From positions 1 to 50,858 of the forward strand of contig JAWCJE010000013.1 in assembly GCA_038853715.1 (NCBI GenBank): a stretch of 50,858 nucleotides of DNA, written 5' to 3'. Position numbers and translations under genes: made by a program. Each line of letters opens with the position of its first letter. The first letter of the stretch is position 1. The stretch comes from Candidatus Nezhaarchaeales archaeon. GTDB taxonomy: Archaea; Thermoproteota; Methanomethylicia; Nezhaarchaeales; JAWCJE01. Below, piece by piece: positions 163 through 8,538 of this stretch. The notes beneath the pieces were generated by a model that saw only the letters and a program-made list of their open reading frames with translations, was not told the DNA's origin and ran no database searches.

Positions 163-240
163 TGGCGCCCCGGCCGGGATTTGAACCCGGGTCAACGGCT
201 CGACAGGCCGCTATACTCAACCGGGCTATACTACCGGGGC
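163..240 (-). tRNA. tRNA-Asp (GTC)
   Basis: On the minus strand the acceptor stem GCCCCGG (240-234) pairs with CCGGGGC (173-167), followed by discriminator G and an encoded CCA (165-163). The T arm is CCGGG-TTCAAAT-CCCGG. The anticodon arm is GCGGC-CTGTCGA-GCCGT, giving anticodon GTC. The D stem pairs through two G-U wobbles. No intron is visible. Confidence 0.93.
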
Positions 241-430
241 CTGCCTTAAAAGTAGGTCAGGGGCAATATAAAATTTTAATAAAATCTTGAATGTATCCAT
301 AGAGATTGGGGTAGAATTACGTAAACCTTTTTAATGTTCAAGCATTCATTCCGTAGTTATCACACGGTTGAGGAGCTACTGATGGGCATTAAAGCCTATA
401 AGTTCCCAAAAGTCATTTTTCACGTAAAAA

Positions 431-571
431 GCGGGGGTACCCAAGCCAGTCGTCTAGATGGGCTAAGTTTAAGGGGGCGGTTGATTCTAGATCGGACAGC
501 TTAAACTCAAGAACACATGGGGTATCCGCTGGCGTAGGCCTCCGTGGGTTCAAATCCCACCCCCCGCACCA
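431..571 (+). tRNA. tRNA-Leu (CAA) with probably three introns
   Basis: The ends are clear: acceptor GCGGGGG (431-437) pairs with CCCCCGC (561-567), discriminator A568 and encoded CCA 569-571, with a T arm GTGGG-TTCAAAT-CCCAC and a Leu-type long variable arm (GGCGTAGGCC). At about 138 nt before CCA the gene is far longer than a mature tRNA-Leu (about 85 nt). A canonical anticodon arm GCGG-A-CTCAAG-A-TCCGC appears only if 481-504 (24 nt, within the 5' anticodon stem, before A505) and 512-523 (12 nt, after G37) are removed, giving anticodon CAA at 508-510. A normal D loop also needs roughly 452-470 removed. Exact splice sites are inferred; bulge-helix-bulge folding was not computed. Segments around 466-473 and 500-507 are complementary (AGTTTAAG/CTTAAACT) and may help form splice helices. 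Confidence 0.8.
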
Positions 572-708
572 AAAATAGAGCCTTATACGGGCTTATTTTG
601 GTTAATAAAACAAACCACATTAAAAAAGATAATGGTTTTCCGTTATAGGTTAATTACTCTCAAAGCCTTTTACATACTGCTATCAATTCTATTTAAGCTC
701 TGTCTTTT

Positions 709-1320
709 TCACCAGTATTTAATGACTTTCGCGTTTGCCTCACTAAACCTATTGGTTACAACCGTCCAGTCGATGGCTTTGAAAAATGCCTCTATATAGT
801 CTGCCCGCCTCAGTCCATAATCAATCATGTACGCGTGTTCAAAGACGTCCATGACCAGAATGGGATTTGCTCCAGAAAGATGACCTACATCGTGCTCATT
901 TATCCAAGAATTAAAGAGCCGCCCAGCTACTGGATCATAATATAGAATTACCCATCCAATGCCACGCATTGTTCCAACAGCCTTAAAGTCCTTCGCCCAG
1001 TTTTCGTACGTTCCGAAATCATCTAAAATTTTCTTAAAGAGTTTTGAATTTCTGTCAAGTTCAACGCCATTCTTCGTCATATTTCCGAAGTAGTATTCGT
1101 GAAGCCTCATACCGTTGAATTCCCATCCCCATCTACGCTTTAATTCTGCATACTCAGGTGTCCCTATCCTTCCTTCTTTTAGAAGGGATGCAAGCAAATC
1201 GGCTATTTTATTTGTGTTTGTAACATAGCCTTGATATAATGCAAAATGATTTTTTAGAAGTTGATCGCTAAACCCTTTCGTCCCTAGTAAACGCTCAAAG
1301 TTTAACGGCTCATAAACCAT
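709..1320 (-). CDS. sod: Superoxide dismutase, Fe/Mn family
   Basis: Detoxifies superoxide to peroxide and oxygen in the cytoplasm. Counting from the chosen start (203 residues), the four metal ligands of the family are visible: H25 (KNHF), H74 (RLHEYYFG), D158 and H162 (MDVFEHAY), and the length is typical. The reading frame extends five codons further up to 1335, but that extension encodes the purine-rich GGGAGGGGG Shine-Dalgarno-like stretch itself, ending about 4 nt before the ATG at 1320, so the inner ATG is chosen. The metal (Fe or Mn or either) cannot be told by eye. Just upstream lies a broken rubrerythrin gene on the same strand, so an oxidative-stress pair may once have stood here. 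Confidence 0.95.
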   Translation of the reverse strand: MVYEPLNFERLLGTKGFSDQLLKNHFALYQGYVTNTNKIADLLASLLKEGRIGTPEYAELKRRWGWEFNGMRLHEYYFGNMTKNGVELDRNSKLFKKILDDFGTYENWAKDFKAVGTMRGIGWVILYYDPVAGRLFNSWINEHDVGHLSGANPILVMDVFEHAYMIDYGLRRADYIEAFFKAIDWTVVTNRFSEANAKVIKYW

Positions 1321-1384
1321 TTTACCCCCTCCCATTTTTAATCTAGTTTATCCCTTCTCATATTTGTTGTTTCCGCAGTTTTCC

Positions 1385-3030: not shown

Positions 3031-3105
3031 CGGGCCCGGTGGGACTTGAACCCACGATCAACGGCTCCGGAGGCCGCCGTCCTATCCATACTAGACTACG
3101 GGCCC
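3031..3105 (-). tRNA. tRNA-Arg (CCG)
   Basis: Acceptor GGGCCCG (3105-3099) pairs with CGGGCCC (3038-3032), discriminator G at 3031, no encoded CCA. T arm GTGGG-TTCAAGT-CCCAC; anticodon arm GCGGC-CTCCGGA-GCCGT gives CCG. It is closely similar in body and 5' flank to the tRNA-Arg(GCG) at 8461-8538. Confidence 0.93.
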
Positions 3106-8460: not shown

Positions 8461-8538
8461 TGGCGGGCCCGGTGGGACTTGAACCCACGACCAGTGGCTC
8501 CGCAGGCCACCGTCCTATCCATACTAGACGACGGGCCC
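8461..8538 (-). tRNA. tRNA-Arg (GCG)
   Basis: Acceptor GGGCCCG (8538-8532) pairs with CGGGCCC (8471-8465), discriminator G at 8464 and encoded CCA at 8463-8461. T arm GTGGG-TTCAAGT-CCCAC; anticodon arm GGTGGC-CTGCGGA-GCCACT gives GCG. Differs from tRNA-Arg(CCG) mainly in the anticodon arm and in encoding CCA. Confidence 0.93.

Follow-up and report, generated by a model that had tools for sequence, protein, structure and literature searches.

The locus at positions 431-571 of the window (the whole stretch of DNA that was analysed, 50,858 nt) raises the question of whether a sequence that standard tRNA finders pass over is a functional tRNA gene and, if so, how many introns would have to leave its transcript before a mature tRNA could form. 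The gene starts at window position 431 with GCGGGGGTACCCAAGCCAG, and its 3' end has a complete T arm followed by the 3' acceptor strand, with CCA encoded in the gene. In unspliced form it draws no ARAGORN or Rfam call in the window, where both programs find three other tRNAs, and a whole-genome Rfam scan likewise lacks this tRNA-Leu gene. The preliminary description had read it as a tRNA-Leu(CAA) with introns in the D loop, in the 5' anticodon stem and at the canonical 37/38 site; its coordinates, with the encoded CCA included, were correct. We put at roughly 95% the probability that this is a functional tRNA-Leu(CAA) gene of a Thermoproteota-like archaeon, from whose transcript three bulge-helix-bulge (BHB) introns are spliced out.

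Exon and intron layout of the tRNA-Leu(CAA) gene

A blind spliced alignment, whose templates were 80 mature tRNAs only and gave no guidance on introns, placed exactly three introns at 93% identity. Their lengths are 17, 24 and 12 nt, where 17-19, 24 and 12 nt had been proposed, and the intronless genes of relatives, the BHB geometry and the spliced alignment agree on the three sites. The resulting layout and its surroundings are as follows.

395..404, plus strand: TATA-like element GCCTATAAGT, ~28-36 nt upstream of the mature 5' end, read directly from the sequence as a putative promoter
431..449, plus strand: exon 1, with the 5' acceptor strand GCGGGGG, positions 8-9, D-stem CCC and the D loop through G18 (from the match to class relatives' intronless Leu(CAA) genes and the spliced alignment)
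450..466, plus strand: intron 1, 17 nt, D loop 18/19, interrupting G18-G19, TCGTCTAGATGGGCTAA (BHB central helix AGCC/GGCU, 4/4, and an inner helix)
467..480, plus strand: exon 2, G19 through position 30, GTTTAAGGGGGCGG (relatives' genes and spliced alignment)
481..504, plus strand: intron 2, 24 nt, 5' anticodon stem 30/31, TTGATTCTAGATCGGACAGCTTAA (BHB central helix GGGC/GCUU, 4/4; in L166, a gene of the same order, this site also holds an intron of 24 nt)
505..511, plus strand: exon 3, A31, C32, U33, anticodon CAA and G37
512..523, plus strand: intron 3, 12 nt, canonical 37/38 site, AACACATGGGGT (central helix CUCA/UGGG, 4/4, with bulges AG^A and GU^A)
524..571, plus strand: exon 4, A38, 3' anticodon stem, long variable arm, T arm, 3' acceptor strand, discriminator A and CCA
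578..602, plus strand: weak hairpin followed by a T-rich stretch downstream of the gene, a possible terminator (in a consensus scan no better than chance)
163..240, divergent: neighbouring tRNA-Asp(GTC)
709..1335, minus strand: Fe/Mn superoxide dismutase, downstream of the tRNA-Leu
3031..3105: neighbouring tRNA-Arg(CCG)
8464..8538: neighbouring tRNA-Arg(GCG)

The spliced product is 88 nt long, that is 85 nt plus the encoded CCA, as the proposed product of about 85 nt had anticipated, and ARAGORN calls it tRNA-Leu(caa). It has the long variable arm, the CAA anticodon and the intact acceptor and T arms of a type II tRNA-Leu. Exon 3, ACTCAAG, is present within the Leu(CAA) pattern of 23 class relatives, and exon 4 reaches up to 98% identity with the 3' halves of Leu tRNAs from across the phylum. 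TTTATAT boxes similar to the TATA-like element precede many other tRNA genes in the genome. Elsewhere in the window, an adenylate kinase gene (2266-2898) has its best relatives in Archaeoglobi and bacteria, and was probably therefore acquired horizontally.

That standard finders miss the gene is in keeping with a pseudogene, a decayed Leu tRNA in which the extra bases are random insertions and processing has been lost. Against this, every exon base fits the family, the acceptor, T and variable arms are intact, all inserts have an in-register BHB, and a TATA-like box lies upstream; moreover, a pattern search of the genome, which is 95% complete, found this as its only Leu(CAA) gene. A decayed gene is, on this evidence, very unlikely.

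Bulge-helix-bulge geometry and alternative parses

A junction was scored as a BHB when two 3-nt bulges flank a 4-bp helix and the cut falls after the second bulge nucleotide. In this strict register the central helix is paired at four of four positions at each of the three junctions, a result obtained in 0 of 100,000 shuffled genes, with a single 4/4 junction arising by chance at about 2%. The motifs differ in how far they approach the strict hBHBh' form, in which both inner and outer helices are present: intron 1 has an inner helix and a weak outer one; intron 2 forms a relaxed BHB, in which two of the central pairs are G-U and the inner helix is weak; and the outer helix of intron 3 is complete once intron 2 is removed, with only a short loop inside. 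Among D-loop removals of 15-19 nt, only that of 450-466 (17 nt) retains G18-G19 together with a 4/4 BHB. In the anticodon arm, 15 combinations of cuts yield a 5-bp stem with Y32-U33-R37, and just one of these has a 4/4 central helix at both introns; its anticodon is CAA. When anticodon regions were shuffled (n=2000), a BHB-supported parse appeared in 0.05%, and a Leu anticodon in none.

These parses also bear on a reading with fewer introns, in which the long D loop is retained or the anticodon region holds one large intron and a different anticodon. Removal of the D-loop intron alone does lead ARAGORN to call a tRNA-Thr(ggt) that has a single intron, at 37/38, but this call disrupts Leu exons that are conserved in all relatives, and every parse that puts just one intron in the anticodon arm lacks BHB support. 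ARAGORN detects no tRNA as long as the D-loop insert stays in place, and the AGCC/GGCU helix recurs at the 18/19 intron of a relative's Leu gene, making it highly improbable that fewer than three introns are removed. An assembly error that added the extra bases is a negligible concern: the genome is a draft in 30 contigs, but misassembly would not be expected to yield three exact inserts, each able to form a BHB, at sites that relatives and other tRNAs of the same genome also use.

Predicted splicing order and endonuclease

With three BHB introns in a tRNA-Leu(CAA) as the preferred reading, we infer that the gene is transcribed and that its product is cleaved in a set order and ligated. The precursor would fold into BHB motifs at the three exon/intron boundaries. 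In each bulge, cleavage by a two-subunit tRNA-splicing endonuclease would follow the second nucleotide, and a ligase, assumed to be of the RtcB type, would then join the exons into the 85-nt tRNA plus CCA.

The genome has two EndA-family genes, on contigs C7 and C2, whose products are 188 and 185 aa long. The 188-aa protein (gene on contig C7) aligns over its full length to PDB 3p1z_B and 3ajv_B, which we take to be the Aeropyrum pernix alpha subunit, and contains the segment GPGIDHAP. In the alignment to 3p1z_B its KPK stands in place of K44-P45-R46, the residues of the A. pernix Crenarchaea-specific loop (PMC12397907). Enzymes of the (alpha beta)2 type with this loop cleave relaxed BHBs (PMC6379350), and the two genes point to a predicted splicing endonuclease of that type in this archaeon.

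The predicted order of removal rests on folding. While intron 2 is present, the outer helix of the 37/38 junction amounts to one pair beside the bulge; once intron 2 is gone, all five stem pairs are available. The minimum free energy (MFE) fold of the precursor lacking intron 2 is a cloverleaf in which the D-arm and anticodon-arm hairpins carry the remaining two introns in BHB-like form. As the 37/38 BHB needs the anticodon stem, which exists only after removal of intron 2, the 24-nt 30/31 intron would have to leave first, and the 12-nt 37/38 intron would then form its full BHB on the restored stem. The 17-nt D-loop intron could be removed at any time, since its BHB is local, and its hairpin is already formed in the fold of the full precursor. 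Ordered removal is known in archaeal multi-intron tRNAs, where some introns exit before the BHB of another can form (PMC8450103).

In the MFE fold of the full precursor, GUUUAAG of the D loop pairs with CUUAAAC (the end of intron 2 and exon 3), burying the 3' splice site of the 30/31 intron. This helix may be a competing fold; a functional role for it was set aside because it is not conserved in the same-order genome G003.

Intron history and comparison with known systems

The same gene occurs with zero, one, two or three introns across relatives, and is therefore a good series for the study of intron gain. Leu(CAA) is intronless in seven class relatives (G009, G012, G014, G016, G018, G020 and G022; L148-L154), one of these genes reading GCGGGGGTTGCCGAGCCAGGTTAAAGGCGGCGGACTCAAGATCCGCTGGCG..., and has the 37/38 intron only in many others. 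In G003, the Leu(CAA) gene (L166) has a 24-nt 30/31 intron and a 14-nt 37/38 intron in the same BHB registers as the window gene, but lacks the D-loop intron; another Leu gene of that genome (L277) has an 18/19 intron whose AGCC/GGCU helix is identical to that of the window gene. Leu(CAA) genes with 30/31 and 37/38 introns were found in three further genomes of the phylum (G239, G279 and G350). Among the 398 genomes sampled, the window's own gene alone shows both patterns, 18/19 and 30/31 plus 37/38, at one locus; the lack of the three-site combination in Leu(CAA) of the 397 other phylum genomes is a weak statement, as the patterns searched were strict.

As they are shared with the same-order relative, the 30/31 and 37/38 introns are probably the older ones, and the 18/19 intron is probably a recent addition in this gene. 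TCTAGAT, GG, GC and TAA occur in the same order in introns 1 and 2, and a gapped comparison finds counterparts in intron 2 for 16 of the 17 bases of intron 1 (shuffle p ~0.001 global, ~0.01 local). It is conceivable, though on balance doubtful, that the 30/31 intron of this same gene gave rise to the 18/19 intron by transposition; with sequences this short and pairing constraints shared, the resemblance serves only as a lead. Large-scale transposition of tRNA introns has been proposed for Thermoproteales (Fujishima 2010, as cited in PMC4033280 and PMC4090602). If true here, an intragenic intron move would have been caught inside one tRNA gene.

The gene was also described as an uncommon multi-intron tRNA; multi-intron it is, but the implied rarity is overstated, given how common D-arm and anticodon-stem introns are in this genome, a second three-intron tRNA (Leu-UAG) and archaeal precedents (PMC8450103, PMC4390854). 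By spliced alignment, in which boundaries outside the Leu genes are rough, more than half of the tRNA genes examined have introns, many of them two. Introns are present in all four of the remaining Leu tRNAs: in three the site is 30/31, with a 4/4 BHB (GAG, L003 on C8; CAG, L004 on C3; UAG, L005 on C2, all of G000), and those for UAG and UAA are interrupted in the acceptor stem, near 6/7. The tRNA-Leu(UAG) gene (C2, ~83570-83714) combines introns at ~6/7, 30/31 and 37/38, and three introns were the most found when the genome's long tRNA genes were parsed by hand. The 30/31 introns of the CAG and UAG genes are alike in sequence (p ~0.002); the similarity of the CAA 30/31 intron to the others in the genome is not significant.

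Two other loci of the genome were noted in passing. A hand parse of L018 ~2650-2790 (C6 ~9000) gives a tRNA-Trp(CCA) with two introns, one in the anticodon stem and a long one at 37/38; the latter resembles the box C/D guide intron known from other archaea. At L193 ~1480-1525 (C4:75341), a good T arm and the 3' acceptor strand CCGGAGC have no matching 5' half upstream, and a search for that half returned two matches, neither of them tRNA-like; the element could be the 3' half of a split tRNA, part of a long-intron gene or a remnant.

Three introns at canonical and noncanonical positions, as placed by the blind alignment, match the multi-intron pattern of Thermoproteota. Archaeal tRNA genes with up to three introns are known from Thermoproteales (PMC8450103), including the three-intron pre-tRNAs for Pyrobaculum calidifontis tRNA-Glu(UUC) and P. 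islandicum tRNA-Pro(UGG) (PMC4390854); four-intron archaeal tRNAs were not found in our literature search. These precursors resemble the window gene in having up to three short BHB introns at canonical and noncanonical sites, and differ in isotype. The 30/31 site is on a published list of intron positions (PMC4090602), and BHBs in the D loop and acceptor stem are documented (PMC6379350); position 18/19 is not named explicitly in the literature searched, which did not extend to the primary survey (Sugahara 2008). Cleavage by Sulfolobus tokodaii EndA at predicted BHB-like structures was demonstrated experimentally for the anticodon-stem intron of tRNA-Leu and the D-arm introns of tRNA-Glu (PMC4307357), the same kinds of site as here, although each of those genes has one intron and the window gene three. 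The tRNA-Ile(UAU) of the red alga Cyanidioschyzon merolae has introns in its D, anticodon and T arms (PMC9602550). It shares with the window gene three BHB introns, including D-arm and 37/38 introns, and an ordered removal with the anticodon intron last, as proposed here; unlike the window gene, it is eukaryotic, its D intron lies at 12/13 and its third intron sits in the T arm, not in the anticodon stem. As multi-intron tRNAs, D-arm introns and 30/31 introns are already known in related archaea, the window gene is a clean new instance of a familiar kind, and extends the record of three-intron tRNA genes to one more archaeal lineage.
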